A DNA stretch of 28,559 nt from a virus. Position 1 is the stretch's first letter; every line of letters starts with the position of its first letter. The stretch spans positions 1 to 28,559 of the IMG/VR virus record IMGVR_UViG_3300025138_000248. One strand, 5' to 3'. Below the pieces are notes generated by a model. It was given only the letters and a program-made list of their open reading frames with translations, had not been told where the DNA came from and ran no database searches. A program made the translations under genes and the position numbers. Shown piece by piece: positions 6,740 through 24,645 of the stretch.

Positions 6740-7171
6740 ATGCCTATTTTAGAAAGAAGAAATATAAAAATAAATCCTATAGATTTACCACAAAATGATA
6801 AAGTAGCGGTAGGTGTTACTTTTCCTTTTGATGGATCTGCTGTTTTTAATTCTTCTTATACTACTAAAGAACAAGTAAAAAGTAATTTAATTAATTTATT
6901 ATTAACTTCTCCAGGTGAAAGATTAATGAATCCAACTTTTGGAGTTGGAATAAGAGATCTTTTATTTGAACAAGTTATAGACAAAGAACAACTAAAAAAT
7001 AGAATAACAGATGGAGCTCAAGTTTATATACCTGAAATAGATATAGATGATGTATTTATTAAAAGAGAAAATAATGAAACAACTCCAGAAATTCACACAG
7101 TACGAATATCAATATATTATAAAGTATTAGCAGACAGATCAACAGATGCAATATTATTAAACTTTTACTAA
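6740..7171 (+). CDS. gp25: Baseplate wedge protein gp25 (GPW/gp25 family)
   Basis: 143 residues, normal for the family. The core is clear: FPFDGSAVFNSSYTTKEQVKSNL (residues 28-50, in two parts), then LLLTSPGERLMNPTFGVGIR (53-72) and DLLFEQ. The PGER...P.FG pattern is the signature of the gp25/P2 W family, a lysozyme-fold protein without lytic activity that seeds the tail sheath on the baseplate and bridges sheath and wedge. The C-terminal half (VRISIYYKVLADRSTDAILLNFY) matches the beta end of the family. It is followed after three bases by gp6, the neighbour expected from W-J order in P2 and from other T4-like phages. Confidence 0.92.
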   Translation: MPILERRNIKINPIDLPQNDKVAVGVTFPFDGSAVFNSSYTTKEQVKSNLINLLLTSPGERLMNPTFGVGIRDLLFEQVIDKEQLKNRITDGAQVYIPEIDIDDVFIKRENNETTPEIHTVRISIYYKVLADRSTDAILLNFY

Positions 7172-7174
7172 ATT

Positions 7175-9070
7175 ATGGCATTTTCAAAAACATCAAATAT
7201 TTCTAGAGAAAAAAGTATTAAGTATTTAAATAAAAATTTTAATGATTTTAAATCACAACTAACAGATTTTGCAGAATCATATTTTCCAGATACTTTTAAT
7301 GATTTTAGTGATTCATCTCCTGGAGTAATGTTTATGGAAATGGCTGCTTATGTAGGAGATGTTTTATCTTATTATCAAAGTACTCAACTACAAGAAAATT
7401 TCTTATTATTAGCACAAGAAAAAGAAAATCTTTATAATTTAGCTTATTCTTTAGGGTATAGACCTAAAGCTACTACTACATCAACAGTAACTTTAGATTT
7501 ATTTCAATTAGTTCCTTCAGATCCTACTAATCAGTATCAAGCTGATATGAATTATGCTCTTACAATAGAACAAGGATCAACATTTAAATCTGAATTAGGA
7601 CCTGAATTTATATTAGAAAAAGATTGTAATTTTAAAACAGATTCTGATGTTAGTCCTTTAGAAACATCAGTATATTCTATAAATAATAGTACAAATCAAC
7701 CAGAATATTATTTACTTACTAAAAAAGTAAAAGCAAGTGCAGGAGAATTCAAAACAGAAACTTTTCCTGTAGGAAGTTTTTCTAAATTTTTAACTTTAGA
7801 ATTAAATGATCCTAATATAATATCAATAGAATCAATAACAGATTCTGATGGTAACAGATATGATGAAGTACCTTATTTAGCCCAAGATACTCTTTTTGAA
7901 CCAATTGAGAATATAGCAAGTAATGATCCTGAATTACATGGTTTTAATGAGTCAACTCCTTATCTATTAAAATTAAGAAGAGTTCCAAGAAGATTTGTAA
8001 CTAGATTAAAATCAAACGATAGATTAGAAATACAATTTGGGGCAGGAGAAAATAGTATAGTAGATGAAGAAATAATACCTAATCCAGATAATATTGGTTT
8101 AGGAATTAAAGATGGAATAAATAAAATGGAATTTGCATATGATCCTTCAAATTTCTTATACACAGGTACTTATGGATTAGTTCCTACAAACACAACATTA
8201 AACGTAAACTATAGAATTAATAAATTTGGTTTACAAGCAAATGTACCTACTAACACAATAAATAAAGTAGGTACATTATTTGTAAAAACTACTCCTAATG
8301 TAGATAATAGCTTATTACAATATGTTAGAGATTCACTATCTGTAAATAATATGATAGCAGCAACAGGAGGAGGAGCAGGAGATTCAGTTGAAGAAGTAAG
8401 ACAAAATGCTATGGCAGCATTTTCTGCTCAAAACAGAACAGTAACTAAGGATGATTATTTAATTAGAACTTTATCTATGCCTGCTAAATTTGGTAGAGTA
8501 GCTAAAGCTTATATAACACAAGATGATCAAATTTCACCTTTAACTTCTAATCCAGGTAGAATACCTAATCCTATGGCTTTAAATTTATATACATTAGGAT
8601 ATAATAATAATGGTAATTTAACTACTTTAAATAAAGCAACAAAAACAAATCTCCAAACATATCTAGAACAACATAGAATGTTAACTGATGCTATTAATAT
8701 TAAAGATGCATTTATAATTAATATAGGAGTAAGCTTTGAAATAGTAGTATTTAAAAACTTTAATAACCAACAAGTAATAAAACGTTGTATTGAAGAACTA
8801 AAAAAATATTTTAGAGTAGATAGATGGCAAATAAATCAACCAATAATAATATCTGAAATATATACTACTATAGGAGCAGTAGAAGGAGTACAATCAGTAG
8901 TGGAAGTAGGAGTAAATAATATAGTAGGATCAAGTTTAGGATACTCACATTATAAATATGACTTAAGTGATGCTACTATAAAAGGTATAATTTATCCCTC
9001 ATTAGATCCAAGTATATTTGAAGTAAAATTTGCTAACCAAGATATTAAAGGAAAAATAACAACATATTAA
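7175..9070 (+). CDS. gp6: Baseplate wedge protein gp6 (J-like)
   Basis: 631 residues, close to T4 gp6 (660). The N-terminus has the conserved sequence SSPGVMFMEMAAYVGDVLSY (residues 47-66), followed by QLQENFLLLAQEKENLYNLA (71-90) and SLGYRP, typical of marine T4-like gp6. The central region is a beta-rich domain. A Baseplate_J-like segment follows with GGGAGDSVEEVRQNAMAAFS (near 400-420) and a VTKDDYL element. The C-terminus carries EGVQSVVEVGVNNIVGSSLG. The protein dimerises and forms the ring of the inner baseplate that switches from dome to star on contraction. Three bases separate it from gp25 and one base from the next gene. Confidence 0.92.
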   Translation: MAFSKTSNISREKSIKYLNKNFNDFKSQLTDFAESYFPDTFNDFSDSSPGVMFMEMAAYVGDVLSYYQSTQLQENFLLLAQEKENLYNLAYSLGYRPKATTTSTVTLDLFQLVPSDPTNQYQADMNYALTIEQGSTFKSELGPEFILEKDCNFKTDSDVSPLETSVYSINNSTNQPEYYLLTKKVKASAGEFKTETFPVGSFSKFLTLELNDPNIISIESITDSDGNRYDEVPYLAQDTLFEPIENIASNDPELHGFNESTPYLLKLRRVPRRFVTRLKSNDRLEIQFGAGENSIVDEEIIPNPDNIGLGIKDGINKMEFAYDPSNFLYTGTYGLVPTNTTLNVNYRINKFGLQANVPTNTINKVGTLFVKTTPNVDNSLLQYVRDSLSVNNMIAATGGGAGDSVEEVRQNAMAAFSAQNRTVTKDDYLIRTLSMPAKFGRVAKAYITQDDQISPLTSNPGRIPNPMALNLYTLGYNNNGNLTTLNKATKTNLQTYLEQHRMLTDAINIKDAFIINIGVSFEIVVFKNFNNQQVIKRCIEELKKYFRVDRWQINQPIIISEIYTTIGAVEGVQSVVEVGVNNIVGSSLGYSHYKYDLSDATIKGIIYPSLDPSIFEVKFANQDIKGKITTY

Positions 9071-10220: not shown

Positions 10221-12124
10221 TGGGAAGAATAGATCCAAAATTAATAGTATCAGGAGAGGAAAGTTCCATTAAAATTGTTAAATTTAAAGGAAAAACTTCA
10301 TTAAACGCAAACCATCAACATGATTTTGTGGTATATGAAGATGATACTATTGAGATTTTTGAAGCATTTATAACAAATAAAGAAACAGGTCAAAAAGAAA
10401 AACATACACATGAATATTTAGGACCATATCCTTATGGTATAATATCAAAAGTTTTAAGTAATTCTAAAGCAAAAAGAACCCATGACCATAAAATAGATAG
10501 TGTTTCTCATCCTATTAATTTACAAAAAACAGTTTATGGTAAAAAATCATTTGGAGAAAATGTAGATAAAACTTTTAATGAATTTATATCTCCTAAAAAT
10601 ACCATTAGTATAGAAGAATTTTTTAAACATTACCAAGAAATGTTTTATGAAATACCAAGAGATGGTGATAATTCTCATAAATCTATAATAGCTCAAAGTA
10701 CAGATTATATAGGTGATTTTCTAGATGATAGAGATGTAGAAATAATAGAACTTACAAATACAATAGTAGACTTAGAACAAAAACTAGCAGAACAAGAAGA
10801 AGCAGATAAAGAACATCCAGTATTTACAAACGGTACTTTTCTTAAAGAAGCAGATAAAAAGACAATTTATTATATGGATAAAGGAGCTAGAAGAGCAATC
10901 ACAGATTATGATACTTATTTAGTTCTTAAAAGAGTTAATGGTCATGAAACCGAAAAGGCAGACGAAGAAGTTTATATATTAGTTAATGAAGATGTAATAA
11001 AAGGTTTAGAAGTAGGTCCTAGATTTGCTTCTGAAGACTTATATGGGGATAATGAACAAAGAGATAAAGCAGAAGAAAAAAGAAGAGTAGAACTAGACCC
11101 AGATGACTTCGTAGCAGACCCATCTCATTATGATACTACAAGTGATTACATTGCTGCTCTAGACAGAGAAACAAGACAATTATTAGCTAAAGAAGAATAT
11201 GTACAAGAATTATATTATAGATATAAATCTGACAGTGAAAATATATTTAATGATGGTGAAAGAGAAGAAGCAACTAATAAATTTACAGAAGTACGAGAAG
11301 AATTATATGATTTAAGAAGAAGAATACTAAGATATACAGATATTTTAGAATCAGTAGATCCAGATGGAGATTTACAAAATATAGAAATAGATACTTCACG
11401 ATTAAAACAAATAGTGGAAGAAAAAATGTCAAGACCTGATAACCAATTTTCCCAAGCAGAACTTAAACAATTAAGATCTAAAGAAAATAAAATAGGAAGG
11501 TTTTTAGATTCACAAGGAAAAGCAACTTATGGTAGACCTGATAAAAAAACAATATCAGGGGCACCATCTTCAGAAATGGCAGGAATGTCAACACCAGGAT
11601 CAGATTCTTCAGCAATGTCAGGATATTTAGCAGGAGCGGGTATTACAGGTGTAGGAGCTGCAACAGAAGAAGAACCTAAAAATCCTCCTGCAGGATATGT
11701 ATCCAACGGAAATAGAACAGTAAAAAACCATACTATAAACGAAGCAATTAGAGCAATGAAATTAGGAGCAAAATCTCCAGGTGGAAATTATTATTGGACA
11801 TTAAAAACTTTACCTAATAAAATAAGTGAAACCCCAGATTTAGATAATCCTCAATGGCAGGTATATTTAGATAAAAAGGCAAAACCAATCCCTACGGGAA
11901 TTGGAATAGGAGGATCAAGTATAGGAGGAGGTACAAGTATAGGAGGAGGTAATTGGGGCCATGAAGAAGCAAAACGACAAAAGATAAATATATATGCTGT
12001 AAAACCAACTTCTAAATACTATTGGTCTACTTCTAAATTTGAATGGTATGTTGTACCAGGTAAATTCCCAGGTGTAAAATCTAGAAACTGGCAAGGAAAA
12101 ACCATACATAAACTTAATGGATAA
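10220..12124 (+). CDS. Baseplate-region structural protein with His pairs and coiled coil (unknown)
   Basis: 634 residues; no named family recognised. The N-terminal 100 residues carry three HxH pairs: H32/H34 in NHQHDF, H62/H64 in KHTHEYLGPYPYG and H88/H90 in RTHDHKI, plus H97. This is suggestive of metal binding, as in trimeric tail-tip proteins. Residues 168-197 (DDRDVEIIELTNTIVDLEQK and onward) form a coiled coil. A small module at 207-241 contains IYYMDKGARRAITDYD. Residues 275-440 are charged helices, then a Ser/Gly/Ala-rich region (about 455-485). A Gly-repeat linker (GIGGSSIGGGTSIGGGN) joins a final basic, aromatic-rich domain. It overlaps both neighbours' stop/start codons by one base, placing it tightly in the wedge operon. 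Confidence 0.65.
   Translation: MGRIDPKLIVSGEESSIKIVKFKGKTSLNANHQHDFVVYEDDTIEIFEAFITNKETGQKEKHTHEYLGPYPYGIISKVLSNSKAKRTHDHKIDSVSHPINLQKTVYGKKSFGENVDKTFNEFISPKNTISIEEFFKHYQEMFYEIPRDGDNSHKSIIAQSTDYIGDFLDDRDVEIIELTNTIVDLEQKLAEQEEADKEHPVFTNGTFLKEADKKTIYYMDKGARRAITDYDTYLVLKRVNGHETEKADEEVYILVNEDVIKGLEVGPRFASEDLYGDNEQRDKAEEKRRVELDPDDFVADPSHYDTTSDYIAALDRETRQLLAKEEYVQELYYRYKSDSENIFNDGEREEATNKFTEVREELYDLRRRILRYTDILESVDPDGDLQNIEIDTSRLKQIVEEKMSRPDNQFSQAELKQLRSKENKIGRFLDSQGKATYGRPDKKTISGAPSSEMAGMSTPGSDSSAMSGYLAGAGITGVGAATEEEPKNPPAGYVSNGNRTVKNHTINEAIRAMKLGAKSPGGNYYWTLKTLPNKISETPDLDNPQWQVYLDKKAKPIPTGIGIGGSSIGGGTSIGGGNWGHEEAKRQKINIYAVKPTSKYYWSTSKFEWYVVPGKFPGVKSRNWQGKTIHKLNG
11906..11953 (+). repeat. Short in-frame Gly-Ser/Thr repeats
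   Basis: Three imperfect units beginning ATAGGAGGA (ATAGGAGGATCAAGT, ATAGGAGGAGGTACAAGT, ATAGGAGGAGGTAAT) encode IGGSS, IGGGTS and IGGGN, a flexible linker before the last domain of the surrounding gene. Confidence 0.8.
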
Positions 12125-14493
12125 TGGAAAAGGTTACAATAAATAAAATAGAAAGACTAAAAGTCTCAGATTCTAAAGGTTTAACTTCTAGAGATATTAA
12201 TAGAAAGTTTGGTAAAACTAATGATTATATTGAACTTCATATTCATGATTTAGGGGGAGAATTATTAGAAACAACTCCTAATTATCAAGGATATAGCCTT
12301 CCAGATCAAATAGAAAGCAATACATCTCAATTAACTAGTACTTTATTTATAGATCCTTATCAACATTTAGACGATAAAGGATATAAAACAGGAACTTATA
12401 ATGTAGCATGTAATGTCCATAGGAAAAAAATATTTAGTGGCTTACAAGCAGATTTTAAAATCCATGAAATTTCTCCTTCAAGAACAGAATTAAAATTAAA
12501 AGGATTAGGAGTTGATGAAAATAGAGTAAAAAAAGCTATTCTTAGTTTTATAAGTGAAATAGAAACATCTCTTTTTAATAAAGATTTTATTTTAAATTTT
12601 GGTAATAATATAAATATTTTAGGAATTAATGTAGCATACCATAATACAGATGGATGTGCTTTAATTAAATTATACGAACCACTTCCCCCTAATATAGAAA
12701 TAGGAGCAGAATTTTGGGTAGTAGAAGAAATAATTGAACCTTTAGAATTTAAAGTTGATTTAGGAGAAACTCCCATAGAAGAGGGGGGTATACCTTTAAG
12801 AGGACCCAATTTCAGAATAGATACTCGTTTAAATGATTCTATTCCTTCTCAATTTAAAGTATATAATGATTTTTTAGAAAATACCCATTCAGCTTCATTA
12901 TATAATGTATTAAGTCACTTAAGTGAAAGTATAGAATTATCTATAGATTATACCCAAACAGGTACAGGATCTTTAGAAACAGGATTTCATTTTGAAAACT
13001 TTACTCATTTTGGTAGTGCTGAAGAAAGATTAAAAAACTTTAAATATAAATTAGAATTATTAGAATTATATCAAAGACAAATAGATGAAATAAATACAAT
13101 TCAAGGTAGTGTATCTGCTTCAGCTGCTATTACTACTAATATAAGTTTAATAGAAACTAAAAAAGCAAAATTAATAAGTGGACTTGATAATTATGAAAAG
13201 TTTTTATATTATGAAAACCACCCATTTGCTTGGCCTAAAGTCCCTGATTTTGGAATAGGTAATTTACAAGTAACAGGATCAGCATTATTAGATGAATCTT
13301 ATTGGTTACAAGTAGGATTAACAGATTGTGATGTATTTTTTAAACCTTATAATTTAAGACCAACTACTTCTTCCCAGGCAAAAGAATGGTATGGAAATAC
13401 AAATGAATTAAATATAGATTATGGAGGACAAATATTATCAGCCTCTAGATTTGATAGAGATAATAAACATAATTTAGTAAGAACTATTCCAGAACATATT
13501 TCTATGAGAGAAGAAAATGTTCAATATTTAACTTTTACTAATATGATTGGTCATTATTTTGACCAAATATGGATTTATATAGATCATATAGGACAAATTA
13601 GAAATGCTCATAACTCTTTTAAAGACGGTATTTCAAAAGATTTAGTATATACAGCTTTAAGTAGTTTAGGTGTAGAGGCTTTTGATCAATTTGAAAATGA
13701 AGAATTATTTGAGTATATTATAGGAACTAATAAAACTAAATCAGGTTCTTTTGGGACATATGATGCCCCTGACGGAACAACAATGATAACTTCTTCTTTA
13801 GTAACATGTGATAACGGGGGAGGTTCAATGCCTAAAGGAGATATAACAAAAGAAATTTGGAAAAGATTATATCATAATTTACCTTATCTTTTAAAAACTA
13901 AAGGAACAGAAAGAGGTATTAAAGCCCTTATGAATTGTTATGGTGTTCCAGAAACTATATTAAATGTAAAAGAATATGGAGGACCAACAACAGATTCTAC
14001 TACTTATAAAACATTTAATTATGAAAAATTCTCAAGAGCTTTAGCAGGAAGTTCAGATACTGAAGGATATTTTATAAAAGCACCATGGGCATCTTCATCT
14101 TCTCTATTCACAGGAACTATAGAAAGCAGACCTAATAGATCAGAAGGTAAAATTATTTTTTCTATAGGAGCAGTAAAAGATTTATTTAATGCCCCCTTCC
14201 CTAAAACAGTAGAATTAACAGCTACAGATTTATCAGTTCATACTTTTACTTCAAATTATGATTTTTTACTACATGGAGAAAGTGGTTTAGAAACAGCTCA
14301 AAGTTTAGCAGGAGCTATAGATGCACATACATTATTTTCAGCTTCTGTTTTTGTAAGAGAAGATTTATATGATCCTGCTCATGAAAAATATAATTTAGAT
14401 ATTGAAATAATGATTACCCAACATCTTCAGGGTATAGATGGCAATACAGAAATAAAAGGAACTTTATTTGAAGATACATTAACTCCCGCTTGT
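12124..14493 (+). other. Conserved N-terminal flank of the giant protein (gp7/P2 I-like)
   Basis: Residues 1-790. The signature LPYLLKTKGTERG at 586-598 and the following ALMNCYGVPETI correspond to the C-terminal motif of tail protein I, where a KGT-x-R-x-I-x-A-L-x-x-x-G pattern is conserved. The first part of the flank is compositionally like neighbouring wedge genes: charged, few Cys, few Thr runs. Confidence 0.5.
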
Positions 14494-17400
14494 GGTAATC
14501 CACAACAATTTCCTGAAGTAGAATTTTTAACAAAAGTAGATTTTAATGCAGGAGGAGGTATAAATAATTCAACAACAGTTACTACAGTTATACCTGGTAT
14601 TAATACATGTTCAAGTAAAGTATTAATAGAAAACGGAATAACAGCAGATGGATCAGGTAATTTAATTAATAATGGATTATTTCAAGATGATGCTGAATTT
14701 ATGGATTTTGTTACAAATGTAACAAATGGGTATACTAATACAGATATTTCTTTATATAGTTTTGAATCATTAACCCCATCAGCTATTCCATTATATTTAG
14801 GAGAATTCCAATGTAAAGGAATAAATGATTATGGTTTATTTGTTATAGAATGTTTTAAAGCAGATGATTGTGTAAATATTCAATCTGTAGTAACCCCAAC
14901 AACATTTTCTCCAGGAACAACAGCTGTAGGTACAATAACTATTCCTAATAATGTTGGTCAAAATAATGGCCAATATGATGGAGAAACAGTAATATTAACA
15001 TCAGCAGATGGTACTGCTCATACTTTTACTTTAACAGGAGGGGGTTCAGTAAATTCAATAGGTCAAGATCTTATGAATGCCATAAATGCTGATCCTAATT
15101 TTACAGCTATAAATTTAGATTCAGTTCCTCAAAGAACGGGATATTCTTTAGAAATAATAACAATAGCTACTGGATCTAGTACTAATAATCCTATACAGGG
15201 TTCTGCACTTAATATGTCAGGAGATGTAGCTATTATGTCTTTAATAACAAATGGACTTACAGGGGGTACAGATTCAACAGGAGGAGAAGCAGTACTACCT
15301 CCATCAAATAGTACTTGTAATGCAATTTTAGATTTTTATATTGATGGTATTAATTTGTCTTTTAATGTTACTACCGTACAATTCACAGATTATATAGTTC
15401 AAGGAACTACTGGAGATTCTACATATGATAGTTATTTAACTCAAGCAATTCCTTACGCAGCAAGTACACACATTTATGATGGAAGTGCTTATGTGACTTC
15501 TGATGGTAATTCTTACAATTATGGTCCCACTAATAGTGATTATGTTTTTTCACATCCTACTAATCAAGTTTTTGTAACTAGTACATCTATTCAAGCAGCA
15601 GACAAACAGGGTTATTTAGATCCTAGTGAAATTTTAAATTATTGTAATCGTGCATGTGGTAATGTGTCAAGTATAAAAGACGCGTGTTATACCAATTATA
15701 CTACGTTTATTAACGCATTAAATGCTCAAGGTATAATAAATGTAAGTATACCAGGAGTAAATGTAGATACAAAATGGTCCGAATTAAAAGCAGCAGATAT
15801 TATTACTCATTTTCCAGCATCCTCATCTTGTGGATGTGATAATTATGAAATAGGTAATATTACTACAAAAAATACTTTAACTCAACAACCAACAGTTAAT
15901 ACTAGTATACCTTTAGGACAAGGAGCCCAAAATGATAATTATGGAAAGAATGGAGTTAAATTTTATTCAGATACAATAACTACTAATTCATATAATATTT
16001 CTCAAAATAATAAATATTTTGGGGGATCTAATATTAATGATGGACGATTAAATAATATAGGAGTTTGGGACGGAACTAATCCATGGACAGGAGGTACCAC
16101 TATTATGAATCCTATAAACCAATGGATAGGTTTTTCAAAATGTATAACAGTAAAAAATGCTGGAGAATATTTAATAGGACTAGCAGGAGATGATAGAATT
16201 AGATTAGCTATAAATGGTGAAATGCTAATTGAAAAAGATACAAACAGCGCAGATAATTATAATTATTGGTGGGTTTATAAAGTATTTTTAGAAGCAGGAA
16301 ACAATACAATAGTTTTAGAAGGAAAAAATGATGATGATGATGCATCGTTTGGGTGTGATATAGTAGGACCTTTTCCAACAGGTACTTTTAATTCAGAAAC
16401 TGATTTTCATGACATAGATAATAATGGAATTACACTTAATGGAATATCATATAATGATTTAGAAGATCTATATAAAAATAATATAGTATTTAGTAGTCAA
16501 GATGAATTAAGTACATCAACATTAGGAGGAGAAATATTTGCAGGTTCTTTTTACGGAGATCCAGATACAGACACAGGAGTAACAGATGAAGCATCTAATT
16601 ATGTAGATCCTGAACGTGGCGGAATACCTCAATTAGATTGGTTTATAGCTAATGACCCAACAGTTCAATTTAATTTCAGAAAGTTTGCATATTCTCATCC
16701 AGATTACTTAACAGCAACAGTTTCCACCTCATTATCCTCATATACCCCTTGTTTTGAATCACAAAACCAACCAACACGTTTAGATGCGAATGGTGATTCT
16801 ACATACTGGCATACCTTGCAAACTATAATTATAAGTTCTAAAGGATGGCCTCCTACACTTACTACAGGATTTATAATGCCAAATAGTTTTGGTGGTCACC
16901 AATCATATAATACAGGTGATGGTTTGTATTATTCAGATTTAGGGGTTTATAATAGTTGGGAGAGTTTTATAAATGCTTTAAATGCAGTAGAAGGTCCTGA
17001 ACAGTTTCTTACTTCTATGACTAGAGCTGAAGTAGAATCAAAGATAAAAAATGCCGAACAATCACTTATAAATAGTCAATCTTTTCTTGATATTCATAAT
17101 CAACTTATAACAGCTCCATATGACATTCAAATTAAAATTGCAACAACTGTATCTCATGTTATTTGTACCCAAGGAACAGGATCAGGAACAGACACAGGAG
17201 GAGAATTTAACACACAAACAAATCAATGTCCAGAAGGTTATTTATATAATGAATGTACTAAACTTTGTGAAAAAACAGAAATAACAACAACTGGAGAAAA
17301 TGGTTGTGGAGGTATGGTTTTTAATTCAAATAGTTGTGATGATAAAATAGATACAAACCATAGTGGTCTGTCATTTACATCACACATATATGGTATTGCA

Positions 17401-20400
17401 GCAAATCCCGATTATCATAATGTTGAATTTAATACACTTAAATGGTCATTAGGAGGGGGAAATAATCAACTAATACCATTACCTGCTGCTTGTGTACAAG
17501 ATGAGGGTCCTCATTACGCTTATATTAAATATGTTACATATTCTGGTTTAGGTAATGTACAATATACTTCTTGGTCTTCATTTATAGATGCTATTAACGC
17601 TTTAGGTTATTCATTTCAATATGGAAACGAAGTAAATGAAACAAATTTTGGTTGGCAAGATTTAGAAGAAGAACTAGGAGCAAGTGAACTAACATGTGTA
17701 TGGGATTGGTGTGGTTGTGGAGATAGTGATGGATCCTTTGCAACATCAGCAGAGTTTGTAGATTACTTTACTGATTTTGATAATGGTTTTTATGGTCAAA
17801 ATATAGATGATTATTATTTTGAATCAGATGAACCTTTACCTTGGGGTACTTTTGTAGAAGACCAATGTACAGGATCTAATGGTTTACCTATTAGAAGGGT
17901 TGTTGGATTTAAAAAAGATTCATCAATATTACCTATAGATAATACTTTATATATTAATTATCAAACATTTATAAATCAATTAAATGTTGATGGGCACGGT
18001 GTTTCTGAAACAGCCAATTTTACAAATTTAACATCAGAATTAATCACAGGATCTTTTGAAGGATCTTGCCAACATAAAACTTTAATTTCAAACCCTCAAA
18101 CATCTGATGGTAGTTTTCCTACTCCGGGATCTGGAAATACAGGTATGGTTGATTTCTTAGAATATTATTCTGAACAAGGAAATAATATACAAGATATAGC
18201 AGTAGATGGGTTTAAATTTTCTGTTGATCCAGATACTTTAACCCAAACCTTTCAAGAAACCTGCCCATTAGATGCAACAATATATTGTTTTTATGATGGT
18301 ACTTCAATGTCAGCAGAAGTATTTACTAATGTAATAGAAACTATAGAAAATTGGGTAGCAGATCAAGGAACTGATTTTACAGGTACTATTTATCATATGG
18401 TTAATTCTTATGAAAGGTGGTTAGACTGTGCCCGATTGCCTTTTACAAACATTGGAGATCATTTACTAAATGGTGGTTTTGGTTCTATTTCTACCATTTA
18501 TAGTCATAATGATCCAATAAGATTAAATTCTGATATAAATACCACTTACACACCCCAAACAAATACTATTACTTCTGGAGAAAAAGCATTTAATGGAAGT
18601 CACAATTGGTACAAATTAGCTAAAAACGGAACAGGTAATACTAGATCTAAGCAAATAGTTAAAAACATTGAGAATGGTGGTTTGGTAACTATTCAAGGTC
18701 AATCAGTTACTTTAAAATCAGTAATTAATGATGGTAATGGATTATATGATGATGAAGTACCTAATAAAGCAGATAATTATGAAGGTGTTAATTGGAATTG
18801 GAGAGGACCCGCTCCCTCACTACAAAACGCAACAGATAAAGCTTTAGTATTTAATTTTTACGATGAATCTTCTGAAACATCTTCTTCTGGTAAGAGACAA
18901 TATCACCAATCATCTAACAAAACAACACCTGATTTTTCTGATGTGGGTTTAACACAAGCTAAAATTGAGTTAGGTGGTTCTCAAGGTCAAAAAGATTGGA
19001 GAAGTGATTATGAATTGTTTATTAAAACATACTTTGAAAATATAGATAGAACAGCAACTAATTATAAAGATCAAGGAGATTTAATTAATTTTATGTATCC
19101 TTCTGCCCCTATAGGGTTAATAGCTAATGGATCTTCTGTTATTCAAGGGGTAGATGGAGTAACTGCATTTCATAAAACAATGTTAGCTTTTCCTCTACAT
19201 GCATGGGGTTCTATTCTAACAGGTAGTGCAACCAATCCAGGAATGTTAGATACAGGTCATGAGTATTTAGAAACAGCACCACCAGCTAATAATGCTATAT
19301 ATCTAACTGCTCTAGACAGTAATGGTGGAGCAAATTCAAATCCTTATGCTGAAGCAACTTGGGCTAATGAAACAGGACTAGGTACCCCATCAGGATATGA
19401 TCCAACATATGGATATGGTGGTTTACAAAATTATGGGTGGGTAGTAACTTCTGAAGCAGTTAAGGAAAATGCATTCACTTCTTTTGAATTTGAAAATGCT
19501 TTAGAAAAAGTATTAAATGATACATTATGTTCTGATTTTACAGTTCAAGAATTTACGGATCCTAATATATGTTTAGATGTAAATGGAAATATGTTGTTTA
19601 CTATTAATGAATTCTTTATGGATCCTAATATTAATTCAACTCCATTTACTAAATATACAGATTATATAACTGAAGGTCAAAACGCAGGAAAAGTAATAAC
19701 TTTAGCAGACACAAGATTAGAATCACAAATAGGAGGACCAATATCTGTAGATGAATGTATATGTGCTGATGTATGTCCTAATGATTTAGTACTTAATAAT
19801 AATACAATAATAACACTTACAGGATCTTTATTTGATCAATATAATTCACCTTTCACAATAGGACAATCTATTACACAAGCAAATAATAATGGATTTTCTG
19901 CAACAGTAGAATCTTTAGATTCAGATTCAAATGCAATAATAATAAACATTACTAGTGGTACATTAACATTTTCAGATCCTTTAGTAGATGTAGGAACAGG
20001 AGCTCAATATATTCCAGATCCACAAACGGGTGAATTTATAATATCTCAACCACAAGGAGTATTTACTAATTATGATGAGTATATGAATTTTATATCTGAT
20101 CCTGTAAATGGATATAATACAACAAATTTAAATACTTTAAAATTTCAATTAGTAGACCAATCATTTCAAGAAATAACTACAGAAGAAGAAGATTGCTCTA
20201 TTAACGCAGATATATATGTTTATTATGATCATACTTCAATGGGAGATCAAGCAATTCAAGATGCATTTATATCAGTAAATAATTGGGTTTTAGACTTACA
20301 AACAACACAAGGATATAATAAAACAGTCTATCACATATTTGCACGGGACGAAAGATGGGTAAAATGGGGTACTGGTACTTTAGAAGGATTTACAGACCAA

Positions 20401-23400
20401 AATAAATACCACCCTTTAAATTATAACACAGAACCATATTTAATTTCAGCATCAAATGATCCAGGAAATTTCCCAGTACCTGGGGGTATATATAGTGGTA
20501 CTTATCCTGCTTCTAGTCCTTTATCTTCAGTAGGACCAGCAACAGAAGATGTTCTTACAATCTGTTATTTAGATGAATCTGATAATGAGTATGTGAATTA
20601 CGAAAATAGTAGTGCTAGTCCCTATAACCCTCAATTTAGTAGTAATATTAATGCAGCATTCCAAGTAGATCGTAATGATTATGTAAGTGCTTATAATCAA
20701 TTTAATGGGGGGAATGTAGCAAATTTCTTTTATCCAACCCCTAATTTATATAGAACCACAGGAGGTGACCTTACAGCTCATTATACTCAAACTATATTAG
20801 AAGCATTAGCATCAATAACAAGTGGAGATAATGATACTGGATTATTAGCGAATCCTCCTTCTACACCAAATATGCAAAGCACAGGAGATACCTCTTTAGG
20901 ATCTCCTTGGACAGGACATGCTTTTTATAATATATTGAAAACTTCAAACCCTTATTTTAATCAAGGATTTGGAGAATTAGACAAATATGGGTGGGGACTT
21001 AATGTAACTTTCCCCGCAATGTCTTCAACACAATTAGCTATAGATCTTAATGAATTTGTATCTACTTCAGATTTATGTATAACAGAAACAGTACAAGAAG
21101 TAGAAATAAATGTACTATGTACAGGTTCAACATCAACAGACACAAACCAATATGGATTATATACAGTTGAAGGTTTTTATCAAAATGCATTAATAGAACC
21201 ATCATCAACAATTAATGAATATTCAACTGATCTTACACTTTATGGAAATTGGAATGATTTTATAACTCAAAAAATCCAAGAAGATGGAGCAACAGGTATT
21301 AATTTTTTAAATAATAATGGTGCTAATATTAACATAAATACTACATGGGATGATTTATCAAATTCAGTAGCAACATCAGGTACAACAACCACAACAACCA
21401 CAACAACTATTGCTGGCCCCACAATTAATGTATTTACTATTGGCAATCCTTATACTTCTACATTTAATAATAGTAGTCTCAATTCAGGAATAACAGGAAA
21501 TCCTACCCAACAATTAAATTGGTTAATAAGTGAGGGACACGGACAAAATATAGATGGATGGTATTTTGACAATGACACATTAAATAGTGCTAGTAATGCT
21601 AATGGTTGTTGTTGTGATAATTTACCCCCAGGAGGTAATCCAAATGGCCATTCAGGAGGGGTATATAGCACAGTAGAAGATTTTACTTTTACATGTATAG
21701 GTGAACAAGCTTTCTCATCTGTAGCAGGTACTTATCAATCTTGGCATACATTTATTGACACTATAAATCAGTTAAATTACATATCTGTACCAGGTACTAC
21801 AACTACTGGATTTAATGCAGGTTCTGCTTGTGAGGGTAGTACAGATACAGGAATAAGTGGATCAGCTTATACTAGTTCTCTAACTTATAATATTCAGTAT
21901 TGTGTAAATAATGGAGGAGCTACATATACAGGAAATGTTTTTCCAGGAAATACAATAGAAGAAAATTATATAGATTATGTAGCTGCAAATGATCCTACAA
22001 ATGATTTTTCAAATTATTATTTTGAAGACACTGGATATAATGTGGGAACATGTTCTTCATATTCAAAATATGGAACTGGGTTTACAATACAATGTCTATC
22101 ATCAACATCCTCAACAAACGCTGCAGCAGGATTTTTTGGAAATTTAATGGTATCAGGAACAAACTCATCCTTAGAATATACTAGTTGGACAAGTTTTATT
22201 AATGCTTTAAATGTATCAGAAAACATAAATAATAAAGGAGCTAATCCTTTTTCAGTCACTAATACTTTATTACAAGTTTTAGATAAAATGGATGGTTTTT
22301 GGCGTAATTATGATACTGGAACAGAACAACCAACTGTTGAATATAGACTTGATTTTGGTGTAGATTCATGTGAATGTAGTACGACAACAGGACCAAGTAC
22401 ATCAGTACAACAAGACATATTTACTTATCAAGATGATGTAACGAACATATTAACTTATTTTAATTCTACTTCAGAAATAAATTATAGTGCTGCTTTTATA
22501 GTAAATACTAGTGAAGCTAGTTGTGAAGACATACCAGGACCAACAATAGATGTAGAAGATACTCAAAGTATATCAGGAAATATTTCTTTATATGGACAAA
22601 TAGATGGAGGAGCTTGTGTTTGTATTCCAGAAACAACAGGAGGAGAATCATTAGACGGAGACATAGAATTTGAATCATGTATTTGTTGTCCTGAATCATC
22701 ATCTATATCAGTGGGATGTTTAGTAGCAGGAGAAGTGTCTAGTAGTAGATGTGAATGTTCAGCAGACACTTATGAAACAATTATCAATTTTGTTTCAGCT
22801 AGTAGTTTTGAAATAATTCCATCTAGTTCTGCTAAAATGGTAGAATTTAGAATTAAACCACATAGGTTAGATAAACCAGAATATACATCTTTAGAGGCAT
22901 GTTGTGATCCTATTGTAACAGTACCAACAGCTTCACATTTATTTAGTTTATATAATGAACATCACCCAGAAGTAACACCACATTTAGTTTTAAGACCTTA
23001 TACAGGTAGTGATGTTTCTTCTTCTGATGATTTTAAAAATTTCGGTTCCTTAGATTTATATAAAAAAGGATTAATAGTAGGTAGTACAGATATATTCCCC
23101 GTTTATAATGGGAATTTTTGGAATATATTTATAGGAACAAAAGGAGAATCAGGAAGTAATAGTGAAGTATATTTTGGAGCCTATCAATCTAATTTTTTAG
23201 GTCATGTCACTCATCTAACAGCTTCTGCTACATTTAGTGAATATGAAAGAGCTTTATCTTTTGGAGACACAGCTTATAATTTAGCTAATAGAATTCTTCC
23301 AGCAGAAACAGCATATTTTTGTGGAGTTCCTACTAATACTAATAGTGTAAGTGGTAGTGTAAATACATTTAAATATTCAGGTTCTCTTCAAGAAATAAAA

Positions 23401-24645
23401 TATCATATTAAAGATTTCTTAACACATGATACCTTAACAAAACATGCATTAGATCCTTTTCAATATGCAGGTAATACTGTTAGTTCATCTTGGAATAATG
23501 TGTATTTAAGATTACCATTAGGAAGTAATAATAAAGTAGATTCAGCTTCTTATAATAATAATGGATTAGGAATAATTCAAAACTTTAACCCACACCCATC
23601 ATTTAGTTTATATGAATCTTCAAGCATATCTAGTTCTATTACAGGTCAATCCTTTAGTGAAGTTTACGAAACCCACAGACATTTAACACCAGATACTGTA
23701 GGTATTTCAACTACAAGTGAAAAAGTTAGAATAGATTCAGGTTCAGTAGATAGAAGTATATTATCATTTGATATAAAATCAGAAACATCTACATTAGATA
23801 GACAACCTTTAGATTATAATGATTTAGGAGTATTTTTCTCACCACAAGCAGAAATAAATGAAGATATTGTTTATACTTTAGGTGCATTTAGAATGGATGA
23901 TTATATAGGAGATCCAACTCATCAAAGCTTAGCAGAATATCCTGATTTAGAAAATTTAAAGTTAGAATATTTTCAAAAATATTTAAATAGTCACAGACAA
24001 AATATGTTTGATTATATAAGATTAATTCAATTTATAGATCATACTTTATTTAAAGTAGTAGAACAATTTGTACCTGCAAAAGCTAATTTAAAAACTGGTT
24101 TATTAATTGAGCCTCATTATTTAGAAAGACAAAAGTTTGCAAGACAAATACCTACATTTGAAAGATTAGAAAGAGATGCAGAATTTGATCCTTATTTAAA
24201 TTTAGAAGGAGAAGTCAAACATTATGAAGCTTGTATTAATATATCTGATAAAACAAATGAAAATTATTATACATGGGAAGGAGCATTAACAGCAAGTGAT
24301 AATTTATATATGAGCCAAAGTAAATATGCTTCTGATGAATGTAATCCTTATATTACATTATATGATAATTTTGATCCTTTATATGGAAATTATGTAGATT
24401 GTATAATTAGTAAAGAATATTATTATGTTTCTAAACCACCACAATTTTACCAAAATGATCCTGTAAATGAGGGTATAGATCCTAGAATCACAATAAATCC
24501 TCCTTCTCCTTCAAAACCTTCAGGATATGGAGGACGTGAGGTTATTCAAACAAGATTAGTATCACAACAAGGTACACAACAAGCAGCAACTAAAAGTACT
24601 AATGGAAATACTAATGGAAATGGAGAAGAATCTGGAGGATATTAA
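12124..24645 (+). CDS. Giant modular baseplate protein, tail protein I/gp7-like flanks with ~2,765-residue insertion
   Basis: 4,173 residues in one uninterrupted frame. Residues 1-790 look like a conserved phage baseplate protein: HIHDLGGELLE (38-48), a coiled coil (298-360) and KRLYHNLPYLLKTKGTERG (580-598), followed by ALMNCYGVP. That last block fits the tail protein I (P2 I) pattern, the family equivalent to T4 gp7. Residues 3560-4173 are a second conserved block with FDYIRLIQFIDHTLFKVVEQ (3962-3981), VPAKANLKTG and EPHYLER. From memory this block also occurs in large tail proteins of other marine phages. Between them lie eight copies of an A-B-C domain, a PA14-like domain, two VWA-like modules and a Cys-rich junction. 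The start overlaps the upstream stop by one base. Position after gp25 and gp6 matches the W-J-I order of P2. Function as wedge plus host-contact appendage is inference. Confidence 0.7.
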   Translation: MEKVTINKIERLKVSDSKGLTSRDINRKFGKTNDYIELHIHDLGGELLETTPNYQGYSLPDQIESNTSQLTSTLFIDPYQHLDDKGYKTGTYNVACNVHRKKIFSGLQADFKIHEISPSRTELKLKGLGVDENRVKKAILSFISEIETSLFNKDFILNFGNNINILGINVAYHNTDGCALIKLYEPLPPNIEIGAEFWVVEEIIEPLEFKVDLGETPIEEGGIPLRGPNFRIDTRLNDSIPSQFKVYNDFLENTHSASLYNVLSHLSESIELSIDYTQTGTGSLETGFHFENFTHFGSAEERLKNFKYKLELLELYQRQIDEINTIQGSVSASAAITTNISLIETKKAKLISGLDNYEKFLYYENHPFAWPKVPDFGIGNLQVTGSALLDESYWLQVGLTDCDVFFKPYNLRPTTSSQAKEWYGNTNELNIDYGGQILSASRFDRDNKHNLVRTIPEHISMREENVQYLTFTNMIGHYFDQIWIYIDHIGQIRNAHNSFKDGISKDLVYTALSSLGVEAFDQFENEELFEYIIGTNKTKSGSFGTYDAPDGTTMITSSLVTCDNGGGSMPKGDITKEIWKRLYHNLPYLLKTKGTERGIKALMNCYGVPETILNVKEYGGPTTDSTTYKTFNYEKFSRALAGSSDTEGYFIKAPWASSSSLFTGTIESRPNRSEGKIIFSIGAVKDLFNAPFPKTVELTATDLSVHTFTSNYDFLLHGESGLETAQSLAGAIDAHTLFSASVFVREDLYDPAHEKYNLDIEIMITQHLQGIDGNTEIKGTLFEDTLTPACGNPQQFPEVEFLTKVDFNAGGGINNSTTVTTVIPGINTCSSKVLIENGITADGSGNLINNGLFQDDAEFMDFVTNVTNGYTNTDISLYSFESLTPSAIPLYLGEFQCKGINDYGLFVIECFKADDCVNIQSVVTPTTFSPGTTAVGTITIPNNVGQNNGQYDGETVILTSADGTAHTFTLTGGGSVNSIGQDLMNAINADPNFTAINLDSVPQRTGYSLEIITIATGSSTNNPIQGSALNMSGDVAIMSLITNGLTGGTDSTGGEAVLPPSNSTCNAILDFYIDGINLSFNVTTVQFTDYIVQGTTGDSTYDSYLTQAIPYAASTHIYDGSAYVTSDGNSYNYGPTNSDYVFSHPTNQVFVTSTSIQAADKQGYLDPSEILNYCNRACGNVSSIKDACYTNYTTFINALNAQGIINVSIPGVNVDTKWSELKAADIITHFPASSSCGCDNYEIGNITTKNTLTQQPTVNTSIPLGQGAQNDNYGKNGVKFYSDTITTNSYNISQNNKYFGGSNINDGRLNNIGVWDGTNPWTGGTTIMNPINQWIGFSKCITVKNAGEYLIGLAGDDRIRLAINGEMLIEKDTNSADNYNYWWVYKVFLEAGNNTIVLEGKNDDDDASFGCDIVGPFPTGTFNSETDFHDIDNNGITLNGISYNDLEDLYKNNIVFSSQDELSTSTLGGEIFAGSFYGDPDTDTGVTDEASNYVDPERGGIPQLDWFIANDPTVQFNFRKFAYSHPDYLTATVSTSLSSYTPCFESQNQPTRLDANGDSTYWHTLQTIIISSKGWPPTLTTGFIMPNSFGGHQSYNTGDGLYYSDLGVYNSWESFINALNAVEGPEQFLTSMTRAEVESKIKNAEQSLINSQSFLDIHNQLITAPYDIQIKIATTVSHVICTQGTGSGTDTGGEFNTQTNQCPEGYLYNECTKLCEKTEITTTGENGCGGMVFNSNSCDDKIDTNHSGLSFTSHIYGIAANPDYHNVEFNTLKWSLGGGNNQLIPLPAACVQDEGPHYAYIKYVTYSGLGNVQYTSWSSFIDAINALGYSFQYGNEVNETNFGWQDLEEELGASELTCVWDWCGCGDSDGSFATSAEFVDYFTDFDNGFYGQNIDDYYFESDEPLPWGTFVEDQCTGSNGLPIRRVVGFKKDSSILPIDNTLYINYQTFINQLNVDGHGVSETANFTNLTSELITGSFEGSCQHKTLISNPQTSDGSFPTPGSGNTGMVDFLEYYSEQGNNIQDIAVDGFKFSVDPDTLTQTFQETCPLDATIYCFYDGTSMSAEVFTNVIETIENWVADQGTDFTGTIYHMVNSYERWLDCARLPFTNIGDHLLNGGFGSISTIYSHNDPIRLNSDINTTYTPQTNTITSGEKAFNGSHNWYKLAKNGTGNTRSKQIVKNIENGGLVTIQGQSVTLKSVINDGNGLYDDEVPNKADNYEGVNWNWRGPAPSLQNATDKALVFNFYDESSETSSSGKRQYHQSSNKTTPDFSDVGLTQAKIELGGSQGQKDWRSDYELFIKTYFENIDRTATNYKDQGDLINFMYPSAPIGLIANGSSVIQGVDGVTAFHKTMLAFPLHAWGSILTGSATNPGMLDTGHEYLETAPPANNAIYLTALDSNGGANSNPYAEATWANETGLGTPSGYDPTYGYGGLQNYGWVVTSEAVKENAFTSFEFENALEKVLNDTLCSDFTVQEFTDPNICLDVNGNMLFTINEFFMDPNINSTPFTKYTDYITEGQNAGKVITLADTRLESQIGGPISVDECICADVCPNDLVLNNNTIITLTGSLFDQYNSPFTIGQSITQANNNGFSATVESLDSDSNAIIINITSGTLTFSDPLVDVGTGAQYIPDPQTGEFIISQPQGVFTNYDEYMNFISDPVNGYNTTNLNTLKFQLVDQSFQEITTEEEDCSINADIYVYYDHTSMGDQAIQDAFISVNNWVLDLQTTQGYNKTVYHIFARDERWVKWGTGTLEGFTDQNKYHPLNYNTEPYLISASNDPGNFPVPGGIYSGTYPASSPLSSVGPATEDVLTICYLDESDNEYVNYENSSASPYNPQFSSNINAAFQVDRNDYVSAYNQFNGGNVANFFYPTPNLYRTTGGDLTAHYTQTILEALASITSGDNDTGLLANPPSTPNMQSTGDTSLGSPWTGHAFYNILKTSNPYFNQGFGELDKYGWGLNVTFPAMSSTQLAIDLNEFVSTSDLCITETVQEVEINVLCTGSTSTDTNQYGLYTVEGFYQNALIEPSSTINEYSTDLTLYGNWNDFITQKIQEDGATGINFLNNNGANININTTWDDLSNSVATSGTTTTTTTTTIAGPTINVFTIGNPYTSTFNNSSLNSGITGNPTQQLNWLISEGHGQNIDGWYFDNDTLNSASNANGCCCDNLPPGGNPNGHSGGVYSTVEDFTFTCIGEQAFSSVAGTYQSWHTFIDTINQLNYISVPGTTTTGFNAGSACEGSTDTGISGSAYTSSLTYNIQYCVNNGGATYTGNVFPGNTIEENYIDYVAANDPTNDFSNYYFEDTGYNVGTCSSYSKYGTGFTIQCLSSTSSTNAAAGFFGNLMVSGTNSSLEYTSWTSFINALNVSENINNKGANPFSVTNTLLQVLDKMDGFWRNYDTGTEQPTVEYRLDFGVDSCECSTTTGPSTSVQQDIFTYQDDVTNILTYFNSTSEINYSAAFIVNTSEASCEDIPGPTIDVEDTQSISGNISLYGQIDGGACVCIPETTGGESLDGDIEFESCICCPESSSISVGCLVAGEVSSSRCECSADTYETIINFVSASSFEIIPSSSAKMVEFRIKPHRLDKPEYTSLEACCDPIVTVPTASHLFSLYNEHHPEVTPHLVLRPYTGSDVSSSDDFKNFGSLDLYKKGLIVGSTDIFPVYNGNFWNIFIGTKGESGSNSEVYFGAYQSNFLGHVTHLTASATFSEYERALSFGDTAYNLANRILPAETAYFCGVPTNTNSVSGSVNTFKYSGSLQEIKYHIKDFLTHDTLTKHALDPFQYAGNTVSSSWNNVYLRLPLGSNNKVDSASYNNNGLGIIQNFNPHPSFSLYESSSISSSITGQSFSEVYETHRHLTPDTVGISTTSEKVRIDSGSVDRSILSFDIKSETSTLDRQPLDYNDLGVFFSPQAEINEDIVYTLGAFRMDDYIGDPTHQSLAEYPDLENLKLEYFQKYLNSHRQNMFDYIRLIQFIDHTLFKVVEQFVPAKANLKTGLLIEPHYLERQKFARQIPTFERLERDAEFDPYLNLEGEVKHYEACINISDKTNENYYTWEGALTASDNLYMSQSKYASDECNPYITLYDNFDPLYGNYVDCIISKEYYYVSKPPQFYQNDPVNEGIDPRITINPPSPSKPSGYGGREVIQTRLVSQQGTQQAATKSTNGNTNGNGEESGGY
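14689..15795 (+). repeat. A-B-C domain copy 1 (with inserted beta domain)
   Basis: Residues 856-1224. Motif A: AEFMDFVTNVTNGYTNTDI then YSFES (857-882). Motif B: YTNYTTFINALNAQG (1189-1203). Motif C: WSELKAAD (1218-1225). A CGC pair (1236, 1238) follows. The A-B gap is about 300 residues because of the domain at 930-1035 and further sequence. Confidence 0.65.
14911..15228 (+). other. Beta domain inserted in copy 1
   Basis: Residues 930-1035, with GETVILTSADGTAHTFTLTG (954-973) then GQDLMNAINADPNFTA (980-995). The same pattern appears at 693-745 in the conserved flank (TVELTATDLSVHTFT, then SLAGAIDAHTLFSAS), so the insertion may be a relative of a domain already in the protein. Confidence 0.5.
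16126..16377 (+). other. PA14-like beta domain between copies 1 and 2
   Basis: Residues 1335-1418. AGEYLIGLAGDDRIRLAING (1346-1365) followed by EMLIEK, then VFLEAGNNTIVLEG (1387-1400) and a DDDD run. The succession 'GDDxxRLxINGxxLI...' then 'LEAGNNxIVLEG' fits PA14-type sugar- or surface-binding modules. Catalysis is not expected. Confidence 0.5.
16627..17052 (+). repeat. A-B-C domain copy 2
   Basis: Residues 1502-1643. Motif A: PQLDWFIANDPTVQFNF then FAYS (1502-1524). Motif B: YNSWESFINALNAVEG (1609-1624). Motif C: RAEVESKI (1634-1641). A single Cys lies between A and B (TPCFES). Confidence 0.65.
17371..17679 (+). repeat. A-B-C domain copy 3
   Basis: Residues 1750-1852. Motif A-like: FTSHIYGIAANPDYHNVEF then LKWSL (1751-1776). 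Motif B: YTSWSSFIDAINALGY (1814-1829). Motif C: WQDLEEELG (1844-1852). A CGC pair follows (1863, 1865). A-B spacing is about 64 residues. Confidence 0.65.
17749..18045 (+). repeat. A-B-C domain copy 4
   Basis: Residues 1876-1974. Motif A: EFVDYFTDFDNGFYGQNIDD then YYFES (1877-1901). Motif B: YINYQTFINQLNVDG (1943-1957). Motif C: FTNLTSELI (1966-1974). It starts about 24 residues after the end of copy 3, the tightest tandem pair. Confidence 0.7.
18145..19734 (+). repeat. A-B-C domain copy 5 (with VWA-like insertion)
   Basis: Residues 2008-2537. Motif A: MVDFLEYYSEQGNNIQDI then FKFSVD (2008-2035). A degenerate motif B, YTDYITEGQNAGK (2511-2523), and motif C, DTRLESQIG (2529-2537), come after the 424-residue VWA-like insertion. 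A CIC pair follows (2545, 2547). Confidence 0.5.
18262..19533 (+). other. VWA-like module 1
   Basis: Residues 2047-2470. A strand IYCFYDGTSMS (D2058) looks like a degenerate MIDAS loop. TIYHMVNSYERW (2088-2099), a second strand ALVFNFYDESSE (D2247), NFMYPSAP, NYGWVVTSEA and a closing NDTLCSDFTVQEF follow. The same ordered landmarks occur in module 2. Metal binding is uncertain because the second serine of DxSxS is replaced by Met. Confidence 0.45.
20065..21369 (+). repeat. A-B-C domain copy 6 (with VWA-like insertion)
   Basis: Residues 2648-3082. Motif A: YDEYMNFISDPVNGYNTTNL then LKFQLVD (2650-2678). Motif B: YGNWNDFITQKIQEDG (3040-3055). Motif C: TTWDDLSNSV (3073-3082). VWA-like module 2 lies between A and B. 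Confidence 0.55.
20191..21093 (+). other. VWA-like module 2
   Basis: Residues 2690-2990. IYVYYDHTSMG (D2702), TVYHIFARDERW (2734-2745), DVLTICYLDESDN (D2817), ANFFYPTPNLY, DKYGWGLNVTF and TSDLCITETVQEV mirror the landmarks of module 1 in the same order. It is shorter because the segment between the first and second strand is about 75 residues smaller. Confidence 0.45.
21382..21408 (+). repeat. Nine-threonine run (three 9-base repeats)
   Basis: ACAACAACC, ACAACAACC and ACAACAACT in tandem encode nine Thr (3087-3095) between copies 6 and 7, probably a linker. The near identity of the units points to slippage. Confidence 0.9.
21499..21780 (+). repeat. A-B-C domain copy 7 (motif C not visible)
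   Basis: Residues 3126-3219. Motif A: PTQQLNWLISEGHGQNIDGW then YFDND (3127-3151). Three adjacent Cys (3162-3164). Motif B: YQSWHTFIDTINQLNY (3204-3219). I cannot find a clear motif C after it. Confidence 0.6.
21955..22293 (+). repeat. A-B-C domain copy 8
   Basis: Residues 3278-3390. Motif A: ENYIDYVAANDPTNDFSNYY then FED (3280-3302). Motif B: YTSWTSFINALNVSEN (3352-3367). Motif C-like: TNTLLQVLDKM (3379-3389). A CEC pair follows (3416, 3418). Confidence 0.65.
22366..22758 (+). other. Cys-rich junction with repeated CxC motifs
   Basis: Residues 3415-3545 hold eleven Cys, mostly as CxC: 3416/3418 (SCECS), 3498/3500 (ACVCIPE), 3519/3521/3522 (SCICCPE) and 3543/3545 (RCECSAD). It joins the last A-B-C copy to the conserved C-terminal flank. 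Metal binding or disulfide cross-links are possible. Confidence 0.6.
22801..24645 (+). other. Conserved C-terminal flank of the giant protein
   Basis: Residues 3560-4173. MVEFRIKPHRLDKPEYTSL (3572-3590), then a lectin-like beta region (LFSLYNEH...GNFWNIFIGTKGE) and a helical block with FDYIRLIQFIDHTLFKVVEQ and VPAKANLKTGLLIEPHYLER (3962-4002). This block recurs, by memory, in large tail proteins of other marine and Bacteroidota phages. The end is a Gln/Asn/Gly-rich tail. Confidence 0.55.

Follow-up and report, generated by a model that had tools for sequence, protein, structure and literature searches.

Predicted VWA-fold modules with a variant metal-site motif in a giant baseplate-region protein of an uncultivated phage

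Giant structural proteins of uncultivated phages are often left without assigned domains. What two large internal modules contribute to such a protein is the question raised by IMG/VR virus record IMGVR_UViG_3300025138_000248, analysed here over its whole length of 28,559 bases (the window). The structural genes of this virus lie all on one strand, and a single open reading frame (ORF) among them encodes a protein of more than four thousand amino acids (aa) in the baseplate region. An earlier note on the DNA had marked two long, related insertions in this protein, designated M1 and M2, and compared them with the von Willebrand factor A (VWA) domain. M1 and M2 belong to an undescribed domain family. 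We hold it to be the more probable account, with appreciable room for doubt, that they are VWA-fold modules plugged into phage virion proteins, where they would adhere to the host surface, probably by way of a metal ion.

The homology of the two modules is evident from their ordered landmarks. All those listed in the earlier note are found, in the same order, in M1 and M2: IYCFYDGTSM starting at aa 2053 and IYVYYDHTSM at aa 2697, TIYH at 2088 and TVYH at 2734, ERW at 2097 and 2743, YDES at 2246 and LDES at 2816, NFMYP at 2322 and NFFYP at 2867, YGW at 2437 and 2955, and TVQE at 2473 and 2989, with LC a few residues ahead of each TVQE. Its reading that Met replaces the second canonical Ser of the VWA metal motif also holds for both modules (ungapped reading). 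The modules align to each other by BLASTP with E=1e-9, chiefly over the first 56 residues, with a weaker C-terminal piece at E 0.024. A profile built from eight copies matches both at full length, with domain E-values of about 1e-114 to 1e-120; this profile contains M1 and M2 themselves, so the match speaks for consistency and is not independent evidence. Neither module has a convincing family match in Pfam or PHROGs, and tblastn with both against 50,697 phage records returned no match.

Relatives were gathered from IMG/VR contigs in three rounds, with the M1/M2 pair as the starting query and growing alignments thereafter. Of the pattern matches in the viral-contig scans, 2 of 9, 6 of 25, 36 of 43 and 45 of 64 held up on confirmation; M2 as a lone query found no match there. 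Bacterial and archaeal genome contigs gave 69 and 10 pattern matches, none of them confirmed. The divergent members L034, L018, L028 and L030 (L numbers denote loci) had no tblastn match in the same 50,697 phage records, and a PDB sequence search with the family alignment returned nothing at E<=10. When every ORF of the fetched loci is searched with the profile, 51 distinct ORFs have a module match, counting the window and excluding its fragment L001. Two full copies are present in ten of these (the window, L002, L009, L013, L014, L015, L028, L030, L055 and L057). The conservation set comprises domains covering >=300 profile positions together with a copy from Cellulophaga phage phi4:1_18 gp042, giving 50 sequences and, at <90% similarity, 48 non-redundant full-length copies; all except the phi4:1_18 copy come from uncultivated phages. 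Partial copies (including L029, L031, L032, L033, L043, L045, L059, L076, L080 and L081), the weak L044 match and the L015 fragment at 43-84 were left out of these counts. The phi4:1_18 copy first surfaced at E 9e-3 through a search with the whole L008 protein and was then confirmed by the profile at E 5.6e-17. L032 and L043 are two adjacent ORFs, each about 1100 aa long and each with a partial, divergent copy. Module length across the family is about 290-435 aa, with long loops. Beyond close orthologues, identity to M2 is mostly 20-31%, and the conserved set is polar and aromatic: Trp of helix 1 (48/48), the ERW columns (Glu 46/48, Arg 44/48, Trp 47/48), a Tyr and an Asp (48/48 each), Asn and Tyr of N-P-Y (47/47 each), and the Y-H and D-Y/H motifs. 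Full-text literature searches turned up no comparable family of virion VWA adhesins.

The VWA assignment made from the letters in the earlier note is supported by predicted structure. An AlphaFold2 model of M2 from a 28-row alignment has a predicted template modelling score (pTM) of 0.82 and a mean predicted local distance difference test score (pLDDT) of 77. Strands at 12-18, 51-56, 126-132 and 181-187 alternate with helices, forming a predicted Rossmann-like beta-alpha core that matches VWA structures. Structural comparison by VIA-align places the A1 domain of von Willebrand factor (VWF-A1, 1oak) at Z 9.3 over 156 residues, 3.1 A and 10% identity, and 122 of 999 chains reach Z>=8. The best 50 rows are all VWA-like: VWF-A1, integrin beta, and Ku, RGLG1 and a proteasome chain, which we take to be VWA folds as well. 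Foldseek against the PDB ranks Sec24, integrin beta and ANTXR2 on top, with VWF-A1 at rank 7. Searched against a viral structure library, the model is closest to an uncharacterized protein of Virus NIOZ-UU157 (E 2e-5); next come several entries named VWFA. A second model of the region, covering aa 2645-3084 and built from a 17-row alignment, has pTM 0.60 and is uncertain outside the VWA core; it matches integrin beta 8 (7y1t_B) at Z 10.2 over 158 residues and 3.2 A, and VWF-A1 at Z 10.0, and its best 50 rows are again VWA-like throughout. Fold and acidic-motif placement in these models support the conclusion that the modules are predicted VWA-fold domains.

D-x-[TS]-S after strand 1 and an Asp after strand 4 occupy the places expected of a metal-ion-dependent adhesion site (MIDAS). 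In the M2 model D-x-T-S follows strand 12-18 and D-E-S follows strand 126-132. The first of these motifs is present in 45 of the 48 copies, its Asp, Thr/Ser and Ser columns each standing at 45/48. The strand-4 Asp, the column of D2817 and D2247 at the end of model strand 126-132, is invariant (48/48), and the Glu of D-E-[SAT] follows it in 47. At the position of the expected second Ser stand Met (23 copies), Leu (20) and Ile (1). A Thr or Ser is found three residues before a conserved Gly in 30 of 48 copies (Thr 24, Ser 6), two copies lacking the Gly; this residue may correspond to the MIDAS Thr of the loop before strand 4. Three first modules, those of L028, L055 and L057, have lost D-x-T-S and have Lys or Arg for its Asp (K/R-G-x-[NE]). 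They retain the Asp after strand 4, the Y-H motif, the Asp of the helix and, from N-P-Y, both Asn and Tyr, and each is accompanied by an intact second module in the same protein. The metal cluster proposed in the earlier note around D2058/D2247 and D2702/D2817 thus stands in part: these Asp residues and the Asp/Thr/Ser set are strongly conserved, and the motif is non-canonical.

The modules are carried by inserted sequence. Orthologues of the giant protein are far shorter: 1265 aa in Flavobacterium phage immuto, 1336 aa in Microcystis phage Mel-JY01 and 1404 aa in LR756508. Their N-terminal match to the window protein ends at aa 628-665 and their C-terminal match begins at aa 3713-3862, with 7 to 161 residues between. 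Because these two parts nearly adjoin, about 3050 aa are extra in the window lineage, and the module is found in none of the three orthologues. The same is seen in an unrelated setting, the 714-aa structural protein of L008, where a module lies between two halves that are continuous in all three aligned cultivated homologues, from Maribacter phage Panino, Flavobacterium phage elemo and Cellulophaga phage Calle_1. Comparison of homologues thus shows insertion in two settings, the central block of the giant protein and L008. Exchange at fixed sites appears to occur as well. L009 and the window are 85-86% identical in the cores and 70% in both flanks of M1, and M1 itself is 30% identical. L005 has M1, and at its M2 site stands a 634-aa stretch (L005:12164-14065) that matches neither the family profile nor any Pfam, PHROGs or VWA family. 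In the window lineage this looks like modules being exchanged at fixed sites.

The earlier note had further read the modules as insertions into an A-B-C repeat, in its copies 5 and 6, and proposed a later duplication of the nested unit. Built from five other copies, a motif A profile recovers copy 6 weakly, at 6.7 bits (the highest of 20 shuffles scores 4.5), and misses copy 5; a motif C profile built from six other copies recovers neither. Iteration against 30 shuffles leaves this outcome unchanged. The flanks of both modules appear to line up with each other in one alignment. Nesting within the repeats is thus weakly supported, by the copy-6 A motif, and the copy-5 A motif and both C motifs do not bear it out. 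In a tree of the 48 copies each module sits with same-site copies at 99-100% support, M1 beside the M1 copies of L002 and L005, M2 beside the M2 copies of L002 and L009. A joint group of M1, M2 and M1 of L009 has support 46/86, and a six-row version of this grouping is neither supported nor rejected in the approximately unbiased (AU) test (p=0.483). A duplication from M1 to M2 was therefore not adopted.

The description of the carrier as a tail protein is supported by its neighbourhood and by its orthologues. The giant ORF lies downstream of a gp25 gene and a baseplate-wedge gene (table 1). The closest annotated relatives of the wedge protein are those of Mel-JY01 (48%) and immuto (46%), and in both annotated genomes the orthologues of the giant protein keep the same gene order. 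Two genes between the wedge gene and the giant ORF have no family match below E 0.01 in Pfam or PHROGs. Shortly upstream of the baseplate genes an N-acetylmuramoyl-L-alanine amidase is encoded (2910-4529; Amidase_2 E 9e-9). On the 3' side of the giant protein a 1096-aa ORF (24687-27977) has no Pfam or PHROGs match at E<=0.1. Within the inserted block, aa 1341-1376 (16144-16251) match PA14 at E 0.0012, below the gathering score; this stretch is possibly a glycan-binding domain.

Table 1. Coordinates of the baseplate genes, the giant protein and its parts in the window, and of one module in a related locus.
Feature	Position	Strand	Basis
Baseplate wedge gp25 (GPW_gp25) gene	6740..7171	+	PF04965 E 2.1e-13; phrog_261 E 5e-14
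Baseplate wedge gp6/J-like gene	7175..9070	+	phrog_6 E 1.2e-20; 46-48% identity to immuto, Mel-JY01
Giant baseplate-region protein, carrier of M1 and M2, 4173 aa	12124..24645	+	ORF; orthologues in immuto, Mel-JY01, LR756508
N-terminal core, aa 1-665	12124..14118	+	common to 1265-1404 aa orthologues; BLASTP 29-31% identity, E 1e-61 to 1e-80
Central inserted block, aa 666-3712 (repeats, M1, M2)	14119..23259	+	absent in 3/3 shorter orthologues
VWA-fold module M1 (predicted), aa 2044-2477	18253..19554	+	homology to M2 and to module family
M1 variant metal motif (putative), D2058-G-T-S-M2062	18295..18309	+	D-x-[TS]-S in 45/48 copies
M1 ERW motif, aa 2097-2099	18412..18420	+	
M1 YDES motif, aa 2246-2249	18859..18870	+	aligns with end of predicted strand 4 of M2
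VWA-fold module M2 (predicted), aa 2688-2994	20185..21105	+	AlphaFold2 pTM 0.82; VIA Z 9.3 to VWF-A1
M2 variant metal motif (putative), D2702-H-T-S-M2706	20227..20241	+	
M2 ERW motif, aa 2743-2745	20350..20358	+	
M2 LDES motif, aa 2816-2819	20569..20580	+	D2817 column invariant 48/48
C-terminal core, aa 3713-4173	23260..24642	+	common to shorter orthologues
Degenerate-motif module of L028	L028:4162-5160		

The carriers of related modules are diverse. L034 encodes a 1727-aa fibre (L034:5290-10470) with 18 collagen-repeat stretches, a C-terminal Peptidase_S74 chaperone and the module near its N-terminus; similar copies occur in several other contigs. A 2208-aa protein of L020 (L020:4777-11400) combines the module with fn3, leucine-rich repeats (LRRs; EndoS-type LRR model, E 8e-9) and phrog_7816. 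Cellulophaga phi4:1_18 gp042 (ALO80248.1) is annotated 'structural protein' and lies within a run of genes annotated as structural. The remaining carriers have no family match in Pfam or PHROGs that indicates a role. It is the tail-fibre, LRR and fn3 contexts of these relatives that suggest a receptor-binding role. The following mechanism is proposed. (i) Each module would form the predicted Rossmann-like core with long, variable loops. (ii) Phages would plug such domains into large virion proteins. (iii) In the window phage and its close relatives, the modules are carried on the block of about 3050 aa within the baseplate-region protein. (iv) This position would let them stand out from the contractile tail, exposed at its surface as we infer, and attach to some structure of the host surface. 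(v) During binding a metal ion would probably be held by the variant site.

Several results weigh against this account. Of 28 members none is recognised by the VWA models of Pfam (E<=1) or NCBIfam (E<=0.1), and hhalign against the canonical VWA domains that other giant ORFs of carrier phages contain gives E 0.4, with 0.38 for an unrelated control. The PHROGs VWA models likewise have no match to the module family. Foldseek against the PDB yields no match to the M2 model at E<=0.001; the best is E 6.4e-3, and TM scores are low. A single copy of 48 fits the canonical pattern D-x-[ST]-x-[ST]. The core polar residues are highly conserved, where a receptor-binding site that tracks its host might vary more. 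PF04965 (gp25) is found in 6 of the 37 records searched, the window included, many records being fragments; the family is thus not restricted to contractile tails, and for most carriers no link to a contractile baseplate is seen. The apparent exchange of M1 in L009 may be fast divergence, as its grouping with other M1 rows is not rejected (AU p=0.119).

The first of these results bear on the reading that the fold match is generic Rossmann-like similarity and the family unrelated to VWA. It can point to the Foldseek values and to a profile comparison at control level, and the VWA assignment indeed rests on fold, because no curated VWA model matches and the profile comparison does not rise above its control. 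Dropping the assignment over the sequence profiles was considered and not adopted, the fold evidence outweighing them. Two models from different alignments rank VWA first (Z 9.3-10.2, about 157 residues), no other fold enters the best 50 rows, viral-library entries are repeatedly named VWFA, and D-x-[TS]-S and the strand-4 Asp sit at the expected MIDAS places. This leaves generic similarity the least probable of the readings, and very improbable in itself. Hardly more credible is an enzyme with a Rossmann-like core, acting for example on cell-surface glycans or peptidoglycan, whose active site would be the conserved cluster of Asp, Glu, His, Arg, Asn and Tyr. Polar and aromatic positions that do not vary are unusually numerous in the family (W, H, E-R-W, D-E, Y-H, D, N-P-Y) and would suit such a site. 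All of the best 50 fold rows of both models are VWA-like, though, and Pfam, PHROGs and NCBIfam hold no convincing enzyme family for the modules. Scattered weak matches of single members to malate:quinone oxidoreductase (best E 0.0058) were taken as chance.

The main rival, unlikely on balance but well ahead of the two readings just given, is that the VWA-fold modules act within the tail, as structural spacers or as protein-protein glue during assembly, and bind neither host nor metal. Ku70/80 is not known to have a metal-adhesion role, and Ku and Sec23 are metal-free VWA domains; the VIA rows include Ku70/80, and the canonical motif is missing in 47 of 48 copies. The first modules of L028, L055 and L057 argue in the same direction, having lost D, T/S and S while keeping the strand-4 D, Y-H, D and N...Y. 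Yet 45 of 48 copies retain D-x-[TS]-S at identities of mostly 20-31%, all three degenerate cases have an intact second module in the same protein, and carriers range from collagen-type fibres to baseplate proteins, so that no common assembly partner is evident. Adhesion through VWA-fold modules stays the preferred account. A broader version of it is put forward tentatively, as something less than an even prospect: VWA-fold adhesion modules whose metal site has been remodelled (D-x-[TS]-S...D-E) would form a family private to phages, uncultivated marine ones and others, and be swapped as cartridges among giant baseplate proteins, short-tail structural proteins and collagen-type fibres, some carriers pairing an intact with a motif-less copy. 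Adhesion by integrin I domains would then have a virus-side counterpart.

One such giant protein now receives a predicted fold, a conserved site and a family profile, and the profile can be used to search other phages. Single residues are singled out, namely the Asp of D-x-T-S and the Asp of D-E-S, and a cultivated carrier is at hand in Cellulophaga phi4:1. VWA domains would join the parts list of phage adhesins if the module does bind to the host surface. Like VWF-A1 and the integrin beta I-like domain, the modules have the predicted fold, an Asp after strand 1 and an Asp after strand 4. They differ from both in identity (about 10%), in having D-x-[TS]-S-[ML] instead of DxSxS, and in the ERW, YH and NPY motifs and long loops, which are the family's own. 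The full-length copy in phi4:1_18 gp042, a protein annotated as structural, matches the family profile (E 5.6e-17) and is divergent, with a long tree branch (2.16); this comparison covers the module only.

Canonical VWA domains occur in the same kind of virus. Of 37 carrier records, 5 hold VWA_2 above the Pfam cut-off and 5 more match it below that score. Other giant ORFs of 2517-3223 aa carry canonical VWA_2 (L088-L092, in records G038, G037, G024, G013 and G035). These PF13519 domains likewise stand in large ORFs and presumably share the fold, but unlike the module family they have retained both D-x-S-x-S and T/D, and a profile of them fails to match the modules. A VWA domain on a tail-like particle has a precedent, since PMC12923769, which catalogues the tail fibres of extracellular contractile injection systems, lists VWA among their fibre-associated domains. 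There, too, the domain is on a phage-tail-derived particle; in that source it is Pfam-defined, whereas here it is invisible to Pfam. As described in PMC7824862, PMC8651126 and PMC7911831, phage VWA proteins are mostly partners of intracellular AAA+ ATPases, as in the MoxR/vWA co-chaperone and CobS/CobT-like pairs of jumbo and archaeal phages. In those pairs, too, the VWA domain is encoded by tailed viruses; the modules described here are embedded in virion-type proteins instead.

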